24,670 bases of DNA, taken from IMG/VR virus record IMGVR_UViG_3300048837_000440, positions 1 through 24,670 of that record; one strand, written 5' to 3'. The position numbers and the translations under genes were made by a program. The notes beneath the pieces were generated by a model. The model was not told the DNA's origin, did no database searches, and saw only the letters and a program-made list of their open reading frames with translations. The stretch comes from a virus. This document shows, one piece after another, positions 3,391 to 24,643 of the stretch. Position 1 is the first letter of the stretch, and every line of letters begins with the position of its first letter.

Positions 3391-4009
3391 GGGGTGCTAC
3401 CTCCGAAAGTTCGGCGCCATTTGCCCGGCACCATTGGGCGATCTTGAGCAGGCCCAGGAACGCGCCGAAGTCGCTGGCGTCCGTGATGGCCTTGTAGGGG
3501 TGGTAGTGGTACTTGCCGGCAGCCAGGCGCAGGGCCGCGCGCGAGATCTCGCGCTCGTCGATGCCCCTGGTCTCGGCGTAGGCCTTGCGGTAGGCGGCGG
3601 TCTGCAGGGCGACGGCAGGCGACAGGGCGGCGGTGCACTTCGTGTCCGCCAACACCAGCTTCTTGCCGATCTGCCCGAACAGGTCCAGCGTGCCGGCATA
3701 GCCCAGCGCCGAGTGGACGCGGGCCTCCGACTCAATGGGCTTGAATCCCGACTCGAGCTCCCACAGCAGGTACTGCTCGAAATACTCGGCCACCGGCCCC
3801 TCGAGCGAGCTGTAGAGCAGCCCGCCCTTGATGTGCAGGTCGATGGCCGTATGCACGGCGCTGCCGAGCGCGCGCTTGTATTCGAGGATGTCCTCGCGCA
3901 CAAACCGCAGGTCGCCGTAGAGCGGCTTGAGGATCTCGGTGACGGACGGCAGTCGCCGCCCGTCGAGCCGGTACTCGTGCCGCTCCTCGTCGAAGGCCAG
4001 GACGCTCAT
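3383..4009 (-). CDS. PD-(D/E)XK exonuclease, RecT partner
   Basis: This 208-aa protein has the layout of RecB/Cas4-like PD-(D/E)XK nucleases: GSAVH at residues 49-53, an acidic residue in EARV at 95-98, GTLD at 106-109, the catalytic pair in LADTK (D122, K124), and the QxxxY-type motif QTAAYRKAY from 136. In phage recombination cassettes such nucleases resect double-strand ends so that the annealing protein can load on the single strand. Its start overlaps the recT stop (4006-4009, ATGA type), and it overlaps the coiled-coil gene downstream, which supports a coupled exonuclease/annealase pair. The middle catalytic residue is Asp in D-x-K rather than the more common Glu. Confidence 0.85.
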   Translation of the reverse strand: MSVLAFDEERHEYRLDGRRLPSVTEILKPLYGDLRFVREDILEYKRALGSAVHTAIDLHIKGGLLYSSLEGPVAEYFEQYLLWELESGFKPIESEARVHSALGYAGTLDLFGQIGKKLVLADTKCTAALSPAVALQTAAYRKAYAETRGIDEREISRAALRLAAGKYHYHPYKAITDASDFGAFLGLLKIAQWCRANGAELSEVAPHV

Positions 4010-4899
4010 GCCTGACCTCGGGAGGCCGCGAAGGCCTTTATCTTGTCGAGCACCTCATTAACGCGGGCCGCCGGCAGGGCCTCGATTTTGTCGACGCCGA
4101 GCAGGTTTGCCAGCACAGAGTCGGTCATGCCGGCAGCGGCGCACTTCGCGCGAATCAGCTTGAGCTGGCTGGTGGACAGGCAGACAACGCCCTCGGCGAC
4201 CGGTGCGGCCGGCTGCTCCTCGGCAGGCTGGTCGCCGCCCTGCGCTGCCTTGTTGGCCTCGTCCTCCTGCCGGCCCAGCTCCTCGACAACTGCTGCGGTG
4301 GTCGGCGCGTCAGCGCGCGGCATGACGATCGCGGGCTTGCCGGCCGGCGGCGTGACGTCGACCTCGGCCGGGATGTCTTGGACCTCCTCGGCGATCTTGA
4401 AGCCGCGCATGGCGTCCGGGAACGCATCGCGCAGCGCGAAGCCCCGAGCGCGGAGCTGCAGCATGCGATCGGGGTACTGCGTCCACGGGCCGCCCTTGTT
4501 CCACAGGCCGGCCTTCGCGGCATCGGCGACCGAGAAGGTGCGCACAACAGGGGTCCGGCCGCGGCGCTTGATCGTGCACACGGCCTTCCGGTCGCTGCCG
4601 GTGCTGTCGATCTTTTCCTCGATGTCCTCGAATTCCGGGTGCGCCATGCAGACGGCCAGCGCGGCATCGCCCCAGATGGCCGGACGCCCGTTGATTACTG
4701 CGATGTTCTGCAGGGCCTGCAGCGGGGCAAGGCCGAGCTCCTGGCCCCATGCGATGGCCACGAATACGTTCTCGGGCTTGCCCTGGTAGTCCTTCGGTAC
4801 CAGCTGGGACGCCGACAGCGTCTTGCTGATCTTGACAGCGTCGTCGTAGTTCGCCGGGACCAGCGAAAAACGCGGTGCTTCGGTGAGCTCCTGGCTCAT
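4006..4899 (-). CDS. recT: RecT-family single-strand annealing protein
   Basis: This 297-aa protein carries the core signatures of RecT recombinases: GQELGLAPLQALQNIAVING with RPAIWGDA at residues ~52-79, and WTQYPDRMLQLRARGFALRDAFPDA with EEVQD at ~139-175. RecT proteins anneal complementary single strands in phage recombination. After a Pro/Ala/Glu-rich linker (~180-240) a short C-terminal helical module (STSQLKLIRAKCAAAG...LPAARVNEVLDKIKAF) is appended, as in several phage homologues. I start at the ATG at 4899 because GGAGGG lies upstream; an in-frame ATG at 4917 lacks one. It is the first gene of the leftward operon, and a probable promoter overlapping an operator-like repeat lies about 45 bases upstream. 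Confidence 0.95.
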   Translation of the reverse strand: MSQELTEAPRFSLVPANYDDAVKISKTLSASQLVPKDYQGKPENVFVAIAWGQELGLAPLQALQNIAVINGRPAIWGDAALAVCMAHPEFEDIEEKIDSTGSDRKAVCTIKRRGRTPVVRTFSVADAAKAGLWNKGGPWTQYPDRMLQLRARGFALRDAFPDAMRGFKIAEEVQDIPAEVDVTPPAGKPAIVMPRADAPTTAAVVEELGRQEDEANKAAQGGDQPAEEQPAAPVAEGVVCLSTSQLKLIRAKCAAAGMTDSVLANLLGVDKIEALPAARVNEVLDKIKAFAASRGQA

Positions 4900-4943
4900 G
4901 GGTGACCCTCCTGTCATGGCCGGGCGGAATGCCCGGTTGCGAC

Positions 4944-5828: not shown

Positions 5829-6080
5829 ATGGGCCGCCCAAGCCTCAAACAGCAAGAGATCGAAACCCGCTACAACATGGTCATCTGGCGCGCCATCAAG
5901 TGCGCGGGCGGATTCTCTGCGGTCGCTCGCCGCCTCGAAGTATCAGAAGCCACCCCCCGCGCCTGGGCTCGCCTCCCTGGCCACGTCCCTGAGCAGGAGC
6001 AGCGGGAGACCATCTGCGAGATGGGCGGCTGGGTGTTCAAACCCAGCCAGCTCACCTCACGGCAGGAGACCAGCGAGTGA
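5829..6080 (+). CDS. Cro/YdaS-like HTH regulator
   Basis: This 83-aa protein contains a short helix-turn-helix (AIKCAGGFSAVARRLEVSEA, residues ~22-41) followed by RAWARLPGHVPEQEQRETICE, a pattern like YdaS/Cro-type phage regulators in which the recognition helix is followed by a hairpin containing P-G-H-V-P. It is the first gene of the rightward operon, opposite the repressor, and is preceded by a clear ribosome site (GGTAGGAG). It should act as the early antirepressor-type DNA binder at the intergenic operators. Its stop overlaps the GTG start of the next gene. Confidence 0.8.
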   Translation: MGRPSLKQQEIETRYNMVIWRAIKCAGGFSAVARRLEVSEATPRAWARLPGHVPEQEQRETICEMGGWVFKPSQLTSRQETSE

Positions 6081-6919
6081 ATCACTACCCCCACCACATC
6101 GGGGACTTCAACAACGCCACGCGCCATCTAACGCGCGTTGAACGGTCGTTGTACAGGGATCTGCTCGACCTGTACTACGACAAGGAAGCGCCGTTGCCTC
6201 GCGATACCGACAGGCTCGCGCGCCTTGTGCTGGCCAGCAGTGCGGAGGAGCGAGACGCGCTGTCGGCGGTGTTGTCGGAGTTCTTCGAAGAACATGACGA
6301 CGGGTGGCACAACGCCCGCTGCGACCGCGAGATTGCCGCATATCGCGACAAGATCGAAGCCGCGTCCCGAGCAGGCAAGGCATCTGCAGAGCGCAGGTAT
6401 GGCGCACGTCAAACGACCCAGCAACAGGGGTGCATCGACGGAATAACGGTCGTTCAACAGCCGTTGAGCGACCGTGTAACCAACCAGAACCAGAACCAGA
6501 ACCAACATGTATCTCCTGACGGAGATACATCTCGCGTCTCGCGATCTGGTACCTACCCCCCCGAATTCGAGGAGGCGTGGCAGGCATACCCGCAACGCCC
6601 AGGGGCCAGCAAGAAAGACGCTCACAAGGCATGGGCTGCCCGCATCAAAGCCGGCGCCGACCACACCGTCATTCTGCAGGGCGTTATCCGCTACGCGGAA
6701 TTCTGCAGGGCATCGGGCACTGAGCCGCGCTACATCAAGCAGCCGACCACGTTCTTTGGACCGGGCGAGCACTACCTGGCCGACTGGTCTGCGCGAAACA
6801 CCGGAAATCAGCAGGGAGGGACCATCCATGACAAACGAGCAGCGACCATTGCCGCTCTCACCGGCAACAGCGGGGGGCGGGGAGCCACCATCGACTCCAC
6901 TGCCGAACGCCTGGATTGA
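6077..6919 (+). CDS. O-like phage replication protein, DUF1376 (YdaU type)
   Basis: This 280-aa protein starts at a GTG overlapping the Cro-like stop. Residues ~1-100 are DUF1376/YdaU-like (NHYPHHIGDFNNATRHL, VERSLYRDLLDLYYDKEAPL), a family found with phage replication genes. A low-complexity linker (~115-155, NQNQNQNQ) follows, then a C-terminal domain (FEEAWQAYPQRPGASKKDAH, then YAEFC...YIKQPTTFFG) common in phage replication proteins. With the downstream lambda P-like gene it makes an O/P-type initiator and helicase-loader pair. The linker coincides with a dense cluster of dyads and iterons in the DNA (6446-6530), just as lambda ori lies inside gene O. The last ~90 bases overlap the P-like gene in another frame. 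Confidence 0.85.
   Translation: MNHYPHHIGDFNNATRHLTRVERSLYRDLLDLYYDKEAPLPRDTDRLARLVLASSAEERDALSAVLSEFFEEHDDGWHNARCDREIAAYRDKIEAASRAGKASAERRYGARQTTQQQGCIDGITVVQQPLSDRVTNQNQNQNQHVSPDGDTSRVSRSGTYPPEFEEAWQAYPQRPGASKKDAHKAWAARIKAGADHTVILQGVIRYAEFCRASGTEPRYIKQPTTFFGPGEHYLADWSARNTGNQQGGTIHDKRAATIAALTGNSGGRGATIDSTAERLD
6446..6530. other. Probable replication origin inside the O-like gene
   Basis: Three structures follow one another. First, a 13-bp dyad: ACGGTCGTTCAAC (6446-6458) and GTTGAGCGACCGT (6463-6475), 12 of 13 pairs matching across a 4-base loop. Second, three exact copies of AACCAG plus a partial (6482-6504). Third, a perfect 10-bp hairpin, ATGTATCTCC and GGAGATACAT (6507-6530), with loop TGAC. 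A further copy of the 13-mer, GTTGAACGGTCGT, lies at 6137-6149 in the same gene. The stretch is visibly less G+C-rich than its surroundings. Iterons and an unwinding region inside an initiator gene are the known lambdoid arrangement; function here is inferred. Confidence 0.65.
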
Positions 6920-7508
6920 GCGCCTGTTCGGCAAGCTCGCGGCGTACTACGGCAAACACTTCGCCGACATGTGGGCTGGCGCCAACGTCGAGCAGGTCAA
7001 GGCCGTATGGGCGCAGGAGCTCGGAGCGCTGCGGCCTGAGCAGATCAAGCTGGGCGTCGACGCCTGCAGGGCCAGGCGCTTCCCGCCGACCCTTCCCGAG
7101 TTCCTCGAGCTGTGCCGGCCGACGGCCGACATGCTTGGCATCCCTCACTTCGAGGCGGCCTACCGGGAGGCACTTGACCTGGTGTGCAAGCGCAAGCGGC
7201 AGGACGAGTGTTCGCACCCGGTCGTCTGGCACGCCCTGGCCGAGGCCGGGCAGATCGGGATGATGCGCGACGAGGACGCCCGCAAGGTCTACCGGTCCTG
7301 CTACGACCAGACCGTGCGCATGGCGATCAACGGACAGCCGCTGCGCGAGATACCAAAGGCCCTGCCGGCACCGGAGGCGGCCACGCGGGCGCCCCTGAGC
7401 CCCGAGGAGCGCGCGCGCATCGCCGAGGAGGCCCTTGCCCGCCTGCGCAGCATCGGGATCAACGTAGGCGCCGCGGCGCGCCAGATACCACCGGAGGCGC
7501 CGGCATGA
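6828..7508 (+). CDS. Lambda P-like replication protein (helicase loader)
   Basis: This 226-aa protein matches the phage lambda P family: the signature IERLFGKLAAYYGKHFADMW at residues ~30-49, then VEQVKAVWAQELGALRPEQI and ACRARRFPPTLPEFLELCRP at ~79-98. P-type proteins bring the host DnaB helicase to the initiator-bound origin. I chose the ATG at 6828, preceded by GGGAGGG, because upstream in-frame sequence overlaps the O-like gene and does not resemble the family. It overlaps the O-like gene by 92 bases and the next gene by four (ATGA), so the replication genes are tightly coupled. Confidence 0.9.
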   Translation: MTNEQRPLPLSPATAGGGEPPSTPLPNAWIERLFGKLAAYYGKHFADMWAGANVEQVKAVWAQELGALRPEQIKLGVDACRARRFPPTLPEFLELCRPTADMLGIPHFEAAYREALDLVCKRKRQDECSHPVVWHALAEAGQIGMMRDEDARKVYRSCYDQTVRMAINGQPLREIPKALPAPEAATRAPLSPEERARIAEEALARLRSIGINVGAAARQIPPEAPA

Positions 7509-8262: not shown

Positions 8263-8621
8263 GCCGCACGCTTGACGATATCGTCGACCTAATCGGCATA
8301 CAGCCGACCATTGAGCTTGTGCGTCGGTACGGCGGCAGGATGATTCGCATCCCGGTCAAGGTCGGGGCTGAGCACGCCATTACTCTGTGCGTCGGCTTCG
8401 CTGCCTCCGAAAAGCTGGCTGCGGTCTACGGCGGAGAGGATCTGCGCGTTCCGGCAGAGCGGAACCTGCTCATACGCCTGCGCAACGAGCAGATCGTTAA
8501 GCGCTACACCGCGCCAGCACCGGGAAATTGGTCTGTCAACGCCCTATCGATCGAGTACGGCATCGACCGAAAGATGATCTACAACGTCCTCGAGCAGGCT
8601 GGCGTCAAGGCTCCCGAGTAG
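8259..8621 (+). CDS. Mor-family transcription activator
   Basis: This 120-aa protein has the layout of the Mu Mor/C family. The N-terminal dimerisation part has the repeated pattern IELVRRYGGRMIRIPVK (18-34) and EKLAAVYGGEDLRVP (51-65). A C-terminal HTH follows (NWSVNALSIEYGIDRKMIYN, ~90-109). In Mu, Mor and C turn on middle and late promoters with poor -35 elements. It is the last gene of the replication operon, starts at a GTG overlapping VRR-NUC, and is followed two bases later by a perfect dyad and then the lysis and head genes. It is therefore the best candidate for the late-gene activator. Confidence 0.85.
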   Translation: MSRTLDDIVDLIGIQPTIELVRRYGGRMIRIPVKVGAEHAITLCVGFAASEKLAAVYGGEDLRVPAERNLLIRLRNEQIVKRYTAPAPGNWSVNALSIEYGIDRKMIYNVLEQAGVKAPE

Positions 8622-9718: not shown

Positions 9719-10096
9719 ATGGGCGAGGCATGCGCACAGTGCCCCAACGGGCAGCTCCACGAGCGGGTGGGGATGCTCGAGCAGCAGATGGCACGCCAGA
9801 CTGCGGTGCTTGAGAACCTCGACCGCAACGTCGGCCGGCTGGTCGACATCGGGGAGCGCCAGATCCGCATTGAGGAGCGGCAGGCAGAGCAGGGCAAGGC
9901 GATCGGGCGGGCGTTCGACGCCATCGACGATCATGCCAGCCAGTTCGACGTCGCCCTGGGCAAGCACGACACCCGCATCAAGGCCCTTGAGCAGCAGGCC
10001 CCGACCAACAAGCTCGCCTCCGGCTGGGTCATCCGGGGGGCCGAATGGGCCGTTGCCCTGACCATCGGCGGCGCACTGGTGAAGCTGCTGGCATGA
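9719..10096 (+). CDS. Coiled-coil protein with C-terminal membrane anchor
   Basis: This 125-aa protein has a helical, heptad-rich body (LHERVGMLEQQMARQTAVLE through FDVALGKHDTRIKALEQQAP, residues ~13-95) and one C-terminal hydrophobic helix (WVIRGAEWAVALTIGGALVK, ~103-122). This resembles the XhlA/hemolysin-like helper proteins found in phage lysis cassettes, but I cannot confirm family membership. It lies three bases after the holin-like gene, and its stop overlaps the ATG of the first ParB-like gene, so lysis and modification genes share a transcript. Confidence 0.7.
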   Translation: MGEACAQCPNGQLHERVGMLEQQMARQTAVLENLDRNVGRLVDIGERQIRIEERQAEQGKAIGRAFDAIDDHASQFDVALGKHDTRIKALEQQAPTNKLASGWVIRGAEWAVALTIGGALVKLLA

Positions 10097-10623
10097 CCGC
10101 CTGGCGCAACCGCATCGTCTCCCGGGGCGAGTCCGCCCCGGAGGACCTGCTCGCCAACCCGCACAACTGGCGCATCCATTCCGACCTGCAGGGCACCGTC
10201 CTCGAGGGCAGCCTCGACGAGGTGGGCTGGGTGCAGGACGTCATCGTCAACACCACCACCGGCAACATCGTCGACGGCCACCTGCGCGTCATGCGCGCCA
10301 TGCGCCGCAACGAGCCCAAGGTGCCGGTCACCTACGTCGAGCTCACCGAGGCCGAGGAGCGCCTCGCGCTGGCCACCCTCGACCCGATCACGGGCATGGC
10401 CACGTCCAACGCCCACATCTTCCGCCAGCTCCTCGAGCACGCGAACACCGGCAACGTCGCGCTCATGGAGTACCTCGACCGGTTCGCCCAGGAGATCGGG
10501 GCCGTCCCGACCGGCGAGGAGAAGCGGCAACAGGAACGGCCCGGCGCCACGGAACATGGCCAGGAAAACTTCACCGGCTTCGACCACACCTGCCCCTGCT
10601 GCGGCTTCCAGTTCGACACCTGA
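10093..10623 (+). CDS. ParB/Srx-like protein with C-terminal zinc knuckle (copy A)
   Basis: This 176-aa protein has a ParB N-terminal-type domain at residues ~1-110: NPHNWRIHSDLQ, VGWVQDVIVN, IVDGHLRVMRAMRR, then ELTEAEERLALATLDPITG. The DGHLR box is the ParB/Srx nucleotide-binding signature, which in phages often accompanies or is fused to DNA methyltransferases. A linker follows and the protein ends in CPCCGFQFDT, a small metal-binding knuckle. It is paralogous to 11686-12174, and the two flank a C5 methyltransferase. It begins inside the previous stop and overlaps the methyltransferase by 68 bases. Confidence 0.85.
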   Translation: MTAWRNRIVSRGESAPEDLLANPHNWRIHSDLQGTVLEGSLDEVGWVQDVIVNTTTGNIVDGHLRVMRAMRRNEPKVPVTYVELTEAEERLALATLDPITGMATSNAHIFRQLLEHANTGNVALMEYLDRFAQEIGAVPTGEEKRQQERPGATEHGQENFTGFDHTCPCCGFQFDT

Positions 10624-11689
10624 GATCCGGCCGGCCCGCTTCATCGGCCCATGGCGGCTCGCCGACCTTCCACGCATTGCCCGGCACGGCCGCACCGTGT
10701 TCTCCTGCTTCTGCTGCGGGGGCGGCTCGACCATGGGCTACAAGCTCGCCGGCTTCGACGTCCTCGGGGGCGTGGAGATAGACCCGGACATGATGCGCAT
10801 CTACCGCCAGAACCACCGGCCACGCCTCGCCTTCACGATGGGCGTGCAGGACTTCGCTGCCCTGCCCGACGCGGAGATCCCGCCCGAGCTGCGCGACCTG
10901 GACATACTGGATGGATCACCACCCTGCAGCGTGTTCTCGATGGCCGGTGCCCGGCAGCGCAAATGGGGCGTCACCGCTCACTTCCGCGAGGGACAGGTGG
11001 CCCAGCGCCTCGACGACCTGTTCCTGCACTTCATCGGACTGGCCGGCCGGCTGCGGCCGCGCCTGGTGGTGGCCGAGAACGTCAAGGGCCTCATCATGGG
11101 CAAGGCCCGGGGCTACGCCGCCGAGATCTTCGCGGCCTTCCGTGAGGCCGGCTATTCCGCCCAGCTGTTCCTGCTCAACGCCTCCCGCATGGGCGTCCCG
11201 CAGGCCCGGGAGCGGACCTTTTTCCTCGCCCGGCGCCTCGACCTGCACCTGCCGCCCTTCGTGCTCGACTTCGCCGAGCCCACCATCACGGTGCGCAACG
11301 CCTTCGCCGGCCTGCCGCCCCAGGAGGAGCAGCCGGCATCCCCAGGCATCCTGCGCTACCTGGTGCGCACCGCCCCGGGCGACTCGCTGTCATCGGTCCA
11401 CCCGAAGGGGTCCATGTTCAACCTGGTCAAGCTGCACCACGACCGACCGGCCAACACCGTCACCGCCACCTGCCCCATGTACCACCCCGAGGAGCCGCGC
11501 CGGATCTCAGGCGCCGAGGCCATGCGCCTGCAGACCTTCCCCGACGACTACGACGGCCTCGGCCAGGACATGCGCTACGTCTGCGGCATGTCCGTCCCGC
11601 CCTTCATGATGCAGCGCCTCGCCCTCGAGATCGGCCGGCAGGCCCTCGGCATCCCCTACGACCCCACCCGGAGAACATTGGACGCATGA
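10556..11689 (+). CDS. DNA cytosine-5 methyltransferase
   Basis: This 377-aa enzyme would transfer methyl from SAM to cytosine C5. Motif I is FSCFCCGGGSTMGYKLAGFD (residues ~49-68), an unusual form with extra Cys residues in place of the common FSGxGG. Motif IV is DGSPPCSVFS with catalytic C124. Motif VI is ENV (174-176) and motif VIII is PQARERTFF (215-223). A target-recognition region of about 90 residues lies at ~225-315, before RISGAEAMRLQTFPDDY and GMSVPP (IX/X). The ATG at 10556 overlaps ParB-like copy A, and no other good start precedes motif I. Its stop overlaps the ATG of ParB-like copy B. It probably protects phage DNA from restriction; the target sequence is unknown. Confidence 0.92.
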   Translation: MARKTSPASTTPAPAAASSSTPEIRPARFIGPWRLADLPRIARHGRTVFSCFCCGGGSTMGYKLAGFDVLGGVEIDPDMMRIYRQNHRPRLAFTMGVQDFAALPDAEIPPELRDLDILDGSPPCSVFSMAGARQRKWGVTAHFREGQVAQRLDDLFLHFIGLAGRLRPRLVVAENVKGLIMGKARGYAAEIFAAFREAGYSAQLFLLNASRMGVPQARERTFFLARRLDLHLPPFVLDFAEPTITVRNAFAGLPPQEEQPASPGILRYLVRTAPGDSLSSVHPKGSMFNLVKLHHDRPANTVTATCPMYHPEEPRRISGAEAMRLQTFPDDYDGLGQDMRYVCGMSVPPFMMQRLALEIGRQALGIPYDPTRRTLDA

Positions 11690-12174
11690 CCACCCGCAAC
11701 CGCATCGTCGGCTACGAGATCGTCGACGCCCGCACCCTCAACCCCAACCCCCTCAACTGGCGCGACCATCCCGAGCACCAGGCCACCGCCCTCGACCAGG
11801 CGCTCGACGCCATCGGCTGGGTCAAGGCGGTCATCGTCAACCGCCGCACCAACCGGATGATCGACGGCCACCTCCGGGTGGAGCGCGCGGCCGCACGCGG
11901 CGAGAAGGTACCCGTCCTGTACGTGAACCTCACCGAGCGCGAGGAGGCCCTGGTGCTCGCCACCCTCGACCCCATCGCCGGGGAGGCAGGCACCGACACC
12001 GAGAAGCTCGCCGAGCTGCTGGGCGACCTGCGCAACGAGTTCGAACAGCTCGACACCCTGCTGCGGGAAGTAGCATTGCAGGGGGGCGTCCGGCTAGACT
12101 CTGACGGAACGACCACCATGCCACCGGCATCGGGCGTGACATGCCCGCGCTGTGGGCACCAGTGGGACCAGTGA
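11686..12174 (+). CDS. ParB/Srx-like protein with C-terminal zinc knuckle (copy B)
   Basis: This 162-aa paralogue of 10093-10623 has NPNPLNWRDHPEHQATALDQ, IGWVKAVIVN, MIDGHLRVERAAARGEKVPV and NLTEREEALVLATLDPIAGE in the same order. It also ends in a zinc knuckle, CPRCGHQWDQ. The similarity covers nearly the whole ParB-like domain, while the linkers differ. Its ATG overlaps the methyltransferase stop by four bases. Two copies around one methyltransferase suggest a duplication, perhaps with the two proteins working as a heterodimer or with different DNA targets. That is inference. A DNA-binding, ATP/CTP-binding or nuclease role is possible for ParB-like folds and cannot be distinguished here. 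Confidence 0.85.
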   Translation: MTTRNRIVGYEIVDARTLNPNPLNWRDHPEHQATALDQALDAIGWVKAVIVNRRTNRMIDGHLRVERAAARGEKVPVLYVNLTEREEALVLATLDPIAGEAGTDTEKLAELLGDLRNEFEQLDTLLREVALQGGVRLDSDGTTTMPPASGVTCPRCGHQWDQ

Positions 12175-23911: not shown

Positions 23912-24643
23912 TCAGGCCCCCATCTGGTGGCGGAGGAAGATCGCGGCCGCGGCCAGGACGATGACGACGATCAGCACGAACCCGATCCACCGGCCGGCGG
24001 TGAGGTCGCGCATGATCTCCTCCTCGCGCCAGCCTGTGGTGATCGGGCAATTCGGCGAGGTCGGGTCGAGCTGGTCGGCAACTGCATCGTCGGCAGGCTC
24101 GCCGTGGTAAGCGGCCGGCGACAGGCCGGTCATGCTGCGCGGCAGGTCGCCGTCCGCATGGCGATCGGCTGCGGCGATCGTATGTTCGCGCGGCCACGTC
24201 GCAATGTCGGCAGCCACGACACCGAGGCGGCCATCGCTGGCAGCCCGCACGTTGGCGTCGGTCTCCTCCAGCGTGTCGGCGAGGATGCGCTTGCGCTCGC
24301 CGCGCACGGCAGCAGCGTGCGTGGCCTCGCGTGGCCACGTCGCAAGGTCTGCGGCAGGCTTCTCGGGAATGGCCTCCGGCGGCATCGCCTTCGGCTGCCG
24401 CGGCTTGCGCACGCGGCGCCAGGCCATGATGTCGCGGTCGCCGCCGCAGGTGTCTGCGCCGTGGATCTTCCAGCGCAATTCGCCGGCCCGCATGGCGATG
24501 GTCTCCTGACCGTCGCGCCGCCGGCCGATGACCCACGTCTCACCGTCGACCGGCATCTTCCCGCGGTTGCGGGTCCACTGCTGGGCCTTCGCCTTCTCGA
24601 TCTTCACGGCCGCCTTGCCGGCGGGCTTTTTGTTCGCTGCCAT
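23912..24643 (-). CDS. Hypothetical phage protein, paralogue of 551-1228
   Basis: This 243-aa protein repeats the N-terminal module of 551-1228: a Lys/Ala-rich start, QQWTRNRGKMPV at 21-32, and DIMAWRRVRKPRQPK at 71-85. It also has a C-terminal membrane helix (WIGFVLIVVIVLAAAAIFLR, ~219-238). The middle differs and carries an internal repeat, AADLATWPREATHAAAVR (97-114) and AADIATWPREHTIAAADR (144-161). GAGGGA precedes the ATG. Function unknown; a membrane-anchored protein with a conserved cytoplasmic head is likely. It is the first complete gene of the leftward accessory operon in the window; the 27 bases upstream are too short to assign. Confidence 0.8.
   Translation of the reverse strand: MAANKKPAGKAAVKIEKAKAQQWTRNRGKMPVDGETWVIGRRRDGQETIAMRAGELRWKIHGADTCGGDRDIMAWRRVRKPRQPKAMPPEAIPEKPAADLATWPREATHAAAVRGERKRILADTLEETDANVRAASDGRLGVVAADIATWPREHTIAAADRHADGDLPRSMTGLSPAAYHGEPADDAVADQLDPTSPNCPITTGWREEEIMRDLTAGRWIGFVLIVVIVLAAAAIFLRHQMGA
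24552..24628. repeat. 77-bp direct repeat, second copy at 1116-1192
   Basis: This stretch, beginning GGCATCTTCCCGCGG and ending GGCGGGCTT, is identical to 1116-1192 in the same orientation. It encodes the shared KKPAGKAAVKIEKAK...GKMP part of the two paralogous membrane proteins. A further near-identical block (GCTTGCGCACGCGGCGCCA) is shared about 140 bp farther into each gene. Perfect identity at third codon positions implies recent duplication or gene conversion. Confidence 0.9.

Follow-up and report, generated by a model that had tools for sequence, protein, structure and literature searches.

The stretch of DNA analysed here (the window) is a 24,670-base virus record from IMG/VR and is a fragment, not a whole genome; megablast found no near relative of it among 50,697 phage records. 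It carries a 280-aa initiator-like gene whose product has a DUF1376 N-domain (PF07120, 8.5e-32, 109.8 bits against the curated Pfam cut-off of 30.1). The same protein matches the primosomal protein family phrog_9327 (9e-51), and its C half matches the replication/initiation proteins phrog_26426 and phrog_270. Judged from these profile matches, this gene and the helicase loader gene that follows it are an O/P-type replication pair (Table 1).

Table 1. Features of the replication gene pair and of the DNA embedded in its first gene (window positions)
Feature	Position	Strand	Basis
280-aa initiator-like gene	6077..6919	+	DUF1376 (YdaU-type) N-domain, disordered linker (predicted), C-terminal replication-protein domain
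Second iteron cluster, CATCTAACGCG / CGTTGAACGGT / CGTTGTACAGG	6125..6157	+	Synonymous conservation in the window's clade
Main iteron cluster, three 11-bp units, CGTTCAACAGC / CGTTGAGCGAC / CGTGTAACCAA	6451..6483	+	11-bp periodicity in relatives
AACCA array, words at 6478, 6482, 6488, 6494 and 6500	6478..6505	+	Among the least stable duplex of the gene
Perfect 10-bp stem-loop, TGAC loop	6507..6530		Directly after the array; stems enriched there in relatives
Lambda-P-like helicase loader gene	6828..7508	+	PF06992, 4.4e-7; phrog_109 P-like helicase loader, 1.1e-26

Several other genes of the window were also recorded. A Mor-family late transcription activator lies at 8268-8621 (PF08765, phrog_836), so that a Mu-type regulator is combined with a lambda-type O/P replication pair in one phage. 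The ORF at 10556-11689 has, by eye, C5 cytosine methyltransferase-like motifs; on either side of it lie two mutually similar ORFs (10045-10623 and 11686-12174) resembling ParB-like nuclease-domain proteins. Close to the two ends of the record, the minus-strand proteins at 551-1228 and 23912-24643 have KPAGKAAVKIEKAKAQQWTRNRGKMPV in common and look like paralogues. The phage also seems to encode an SSB-like protein (by eye) and a RecT-like annealing protein (1882-2586 and 4009-4917, both on the minus strand). A turn of the GC skew near 5.4 kb was considered as an origin signal and rejected, since transcription diverges at the same place and the record is incomplete.

A three-part DNA element in the linker-coding part of DUF1376 genes

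Within the linker-coding part of the 280-aa gene, the initial annotation had described an 85-bp cluster composed of a 13-bp dyad, three AACCAG repeats and a hairpin, and all of these are there. The arms of the dyad (6446-6458 and 6463-6475) are complementary at 12 of 13 positions around a 4-nt loop, AACCAG starts at 6482, 6488 and 6494 and two more AACCA words start at 6478 and 6500, and the hairpin ATGTATCTCC-TGAC-GGAGATACAT (6507-6530) is perfect over 10 bp. The region is also A+T-richer than its surroundings, as had been claimed: 6440-6530 has 49% GC against 65% on both sides, which is below all but 0.4% of the 91-bp stretches of the window. In duplex stability, a 30-mer at the array (48% GC against 65% in the flanks) ranks at the 0.7 percentile for the window. 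When the codons of the gene were shuffled synonymously 2,000 times, a perfect stem of at least 10 bp arose in 2.2% of the shuffles, a stem of at least 13 bp allowing one mismatch in 0.5%, and the two together in 0.05%. Folded as single strands, 101 nt of the locus gave z = -5.4 as DNA and -6.5 as RNA. The 24.7-kb window has no second AACCA array, and none occurred in 200 Markov sequences.

We then collected relatives by protein similarity from viral contigs and bacterial genomes (122 genes, 74 after dereplication); loci L042-L161 were left out of the unbiased tallies because they had been gathered by the array itself. The linker DNA of these relatives follows one layout, namely short tandem repeats, then AACCA words, then often a stem-loop. 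The linker-coding DNA of DUF1376 phage genes thus holds, on comparison of these sequences, a three-part cis-element made of 11-bp iterons, an AACCA array and a stem-loop; it recurs in dozens of other phages, and the 85-bp cluster is one instance of it. The layout is found in the isolates Bordetella phage vB_BaM-IFTN2, Moraxella phage Mcat20, Methylophilaceae phage P19250A, Vibrio phage 1.184.A and Pseudomonas phage phPA-G; Acinetobacter phage Ab105-1phi and Xanthomonas phage Rb1 have degenerate or different arrays. One DUF1376 gene (L006, 3001-4197) carries a tandem duplication in its linker that includes a second unit of iterons, array and stem.

The array, that is, the part with the AACCAG repeats, comes out of this comparison as the most conserved part of the element. 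It is present in 116 of the 122 genes, and in 68 of the 74 dereplicated ones, in the linker between codons 120 and 221. Conserved proteins lacking an AACCA array as defined, the case named beforehand as contrary to an origin here, thus number only six of 74, some of which have degenerate arrays or other repeats. AACCA ranks first among all 1,024 pentamers tested for arrays. The words are spaced by 7 nt in 151 cases and by 6 nt in 105. At 6 nt the array stays in frame and is translated as NQNQ in the window, EPEP in the Achromobacter group and others, and TRTR in L013; single-base insertions switch the frame inside the array. At 7 nt the frame shifts at every copy, giving linkers such as TNQEPITNNHKP; in a Vibrio phage, seven AACCA words follow one another at intervals of exactly 7 nt and run through all frames. 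All three reading frames are used by the array in 38 of the 68 dereplicated genes that carry it, and therefore it is the DNA that has been kept and not the protein. Selection acting only on the protein would hardly explain such usage. Synonymous shuffling of genes already encoding NQ repeats recreated many 6-nt arrays (59 of 140), so the strong evidence lies in the 7-nt arrays and the frame changes. The array is kept in front of P-like (16 of 56), DnaC-like (13) and DnaB (3) genes alike, and is thus not tied to one loader.

Several other readings of the array were discarded. A CTG primase start (CTGGTT being the complement of AACCAG) and a Chi-like sequence were both rejected, as the 7-nt arrays AACCAAT and AACCATT have no CTG. 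Nor does (AACCAG)3 alone serve as a signature: only 17 of 120 sampled viral matches lay in DUF1376 genes by a strict profile. Many of the sampled matches outside such genes were Glu-Pro linkers, and several further ones fit other initiator or primosomal families.

In one respect the initial annotation was not borne out. It had taken the 13-bp dyad as the repeat unit; relatives show an 11-bp iteron instead, and the dyad (6446-6475) corresponds to the first two, partly palindromic, of three tandem units, which start at 6451, 6462 and 6473, plus flanks. Among the 68 dereplicated relatives, exact matches of at least 6 nt at a lag of 11 upstream of the array occur at 528 positions against 46 under codon shuffling (11-fold), and at a lag of 22 at 229 against 25 (9-fold); a control stretch taken from the N-domain shows neither peak. 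A period of 11 bp is about one helical turn and is not a multiple of three. The largest group has CGTTNAACG as its iteron core, a second group has GTCACG, and smaller groups have cores of their own; the CGTTNAACG core is palindromic in relatives and degenerate in the window. Iteron types cluster on the tree of the N-domain (15 changes against 20.3 when shuffled; 0 of 200 shuffles as low), as expected if the N-domain reads the iterons, although such clustering could also arise from physical linkage and nothing more.

The third part, the stem-loop, is common and not universal. The best perfect stem within 60 nt after the array reaches at least 6 bp in 49% of genes, compared with 7% of other windows of the same genes (Mann-Whitney U-test, p = 7e-10), and a codon-shuffle test combined over genes gave p = 1e-4. 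Stem sequences vary by lineage (GGAGAC.TTC.GTCTCC, CCGATAC.TGAC.GTATCGG, or a C-run with a G-run), and unrelated stems share the short loops TTC(G), TGAC and TAAC, which may indicate that the stem acts as a folded single strand. Altogether, the expectation that the DNA would persist while the protein linker changes holds for the array, kept across frames as NQNQ, EPEP or TRTR, for the iterons as a layout with clade-specific sequences and for the recurring stem, whose sequence differs.

A relative of the 13-mer had also been noted at 6137-6149, near the start of the gene. It is indeed present, not as a lone copy but as part of an 11-bp series starting at 6125, 6136 and 6147. This copy falls in the codons for a conserved VERSLYR motif, and coding constraint alone could have been its source. 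Within the clade of the window, however, the codons do not vary (V is always GTT and L always TTG), the eight-codon stretch has the highest synonymous conservation of the N-domain (0.93 against a median of 0.63), and residues 17-26 differ from the rest in synonymous conservation with p = 1.6e-4. The GTCACG clade has GTCACGG...CCGTGAC at the same place, in nearly invariant codons. Whether the 5' site is of the GTTGAACG or of the GTCACGG type agrees with the clade. The simplest reading of these patterns is a putative second initiator-binding site, probably for autoregulation or looping.

Genes with a related C half and another N-domain (L019, L040, L041, BcepMigl and PhiPLPE) have different linkers and lack the AACCA array, which is therefore widespread and not a feature of all phage origins. 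Some initiators with other N-domains have linker arrays of hexamers or 12-mers: AACCAG in L045 (741-1619), AACCGT in L019 (2503-3318) and a ACAGAGATTACT-like repeat in L041 (2494-3399). Linker-embedded arrays may be general in phage initiators.

Comparison with lambda, Rac and iteron plasmids

Bacteriophage lambda, which the initial annotation had offered as a parallel for an origin inside the initiator gene, proved to be an apt one. The annotated lambda iterons lie at 39034-39118 inside O and are followed by an A-rich tract and an inverted repeat, with P as the next gene. At both loci, direct repeats with internal dyad symmetry, a low-stability tract and an inverted repeat come in one order and one orientation where an initiator gene encodes its linker, and a helicase loader gene follows. 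They differ in the initiator, for which Pfam gives DUF1376 only in the window and not the lambda O N-domain, in the iterons, which in lambda are 18 bp long (class criterion 18-19 bp) and about 20-24 bp apart compared with a spacing of 11 bp in the window, and in the low-stability tract, an A-rich purine tract in lambda and the AACCA array here. The second iteron cluster near the gene start also sets the window apart from lambda ori. By analogy, the predicted origin of the window would work as lambda ori does. It falls outside the lambda origin family, since its initiator has another N-domain and its iterons another length. In lambda, the smallest unit that unwinds consists of two iterons and the A/T-rich tract, and single strands rich in A/T are bound by O (PMC7466680). 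By the same analogy, the part that melts and is kept single-stranded is most likely the AACCA array.

The Rac prophage of E. coli K-12 offers a second parallel. Its ydaU is a DUF1376 gene with repeats of the TGTTCAAACA type, an array and a stem in its linker, in the same order as in the window. The sequences of the iterons and of the array differ from those of the window: the array is AAAGAT/ACAGAT, no AACCA word occurs in ydaU, and the stem is of the C-run/G-run kind (CCCCCCC...GGGGG). It is followed by ydaV, whose annotation reads putative ATP-binding protein. An active origin, oriJ, is known in Rac (PMC3945230), and a plasmid study of oriJ is cited in PMC11014345; a search of the literature on Rac oriJ found no statement placing it in ydaU.

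Iteron plasmid origins resemble the window in having repeats beside an unwinding region, the repeats being recognised in plasmids by a dedicated initiator. They usually lie outside the rep gene and have DnaA boxes, whereas the 6077-6919 gene has no DnaA-box match (TTWTNCACA), even with one mismatch allowed.

A candidate origin embedded in its own initiator gene

Taken together, these features suggest that 6451-6530 is the candidate replication origin of the phage, placed within its own initiator gene where the linker is encoded, a reading to which we assign a probability of roughly 0.84. The layout in relatives, the P-like next gene and the same order in lambda and Rac ydaU support the origin originally predicted here, with an 11-bp unit in place of the 13-bp dyad. 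The best reading of the sequence data is a predicted initiator-embedded, lambda-like origin served by a different initiator family. Pfam states no function for DUF1376, and a literature search found no paper linking it to an origin. The predicted N-domain (mean pLDDT 91.6) consists of three helices and two beta-strands (helix-helix-helix-beta-beta) followed by a long helix; in the model its topology looks like a winged helix, and the linker is predicted to be disordered. Sequence and fold searches of the PDB gave no significant match to the N-domain, the best ones including many winged helices, and no significant structural match of DUF1376 to a known initiator.

From the arrangement of these parts we infer initiator binding, unwinding, loading and origin activity as follows. 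The DUF1376 N-domain, predicted to be winged-helix-like, would bind to the 11-bp iterons along one helical face and wrap or strain the DNA. The adjacent AACCA array would then open, one of its strands being held by the initiator or by a helicase that the initiator recruits. The C-terminal half would pass the site to the P-like loader of the next gene, which would bring host DnaB, and the stem-loop would bound the opened region or act as a folded single strand.

The iterons could instead form an operator bound by the DUF1376 protein or another phage regulator, with the hairpin as a transcription pause or attenuator and the origin elsewhere. The presence of two iteron clusters in one gene would suit such a role, as would stem-loops with TTC(G) or TGAC loops, which fold well as RNA. 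We nevertheless consider it unlikely, as it leaves unexplained why there is an AACCA array, on one strand and always between the iterons and the stem, and likewise the match with the layouts of lambda and Rac; moreover, the clusters lie inside the gene, some 50 and 370 nt past its start codon, an unusual place for an operator. Another possibility is that the element is a recombination hotspot or crossover site for swapping the C-terminal half of the gene between phages. C-terminal halves are mosaic, and one C-terminal family occurs both with GTTGAAC and with GTCACG iterons (L003 and L023), but mosaicism at a shared origin sequence is expected anyway, and a hotspot predicts neither 11-bp iterons nor a downstream helicase-loader gene, which makes this explanation very improbable.

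The linker repeats might also reflect low complexity at the protein level (NQ, PE, TR), arising by slippage or by selection for a flexible linker, and have no function as DNA. Although this idea fits the predicted disorder of the linker and the Glu-Pro linkers that make up most viral (AACCAG)3 matches elsewhere than in these genes, it is already contradicted by the frames, since a 7-nt period rotates the frame at each copy; the 11-nt period of the iterons, the lead of AACCA over all pentamers and the synonymous codons frozen at the 5' iteron site also speak against it, and we regard it as barely credible. It appears that the DNA signal, and not the protein, dictates this stretch of the linker.

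If the origin reading is right, it would give DUF1376 proteins an initiator role, and a precise origin to many phages and prophages of Burkholderiales, Moraxellaceae, Vibrio and Pseudomonas. The same assignment would apply to Rac of E. coli K-12, and the location of oriJ would become testable. It would also be a clear case of cis-acting DNA dictating protein, the residues of the linker following the array in whichever frame applies. More tentatively, and at slightly under even odds, the AACCA array with its 6- or 7-nt period may be a general single-strand element of phage origins that is reused with different iterons, with different loaders (P, DnaC, DnaB) and with at least one other initiator family (L045, DnaD-like), being read by a conserved partner such as the C half of the initiator or DnaB. 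Were this true, the array would write itself into proteins as NQNQ, EPEP or TNQEPIT linkers, and many unrecognised phage origins could be read from gene sequence.
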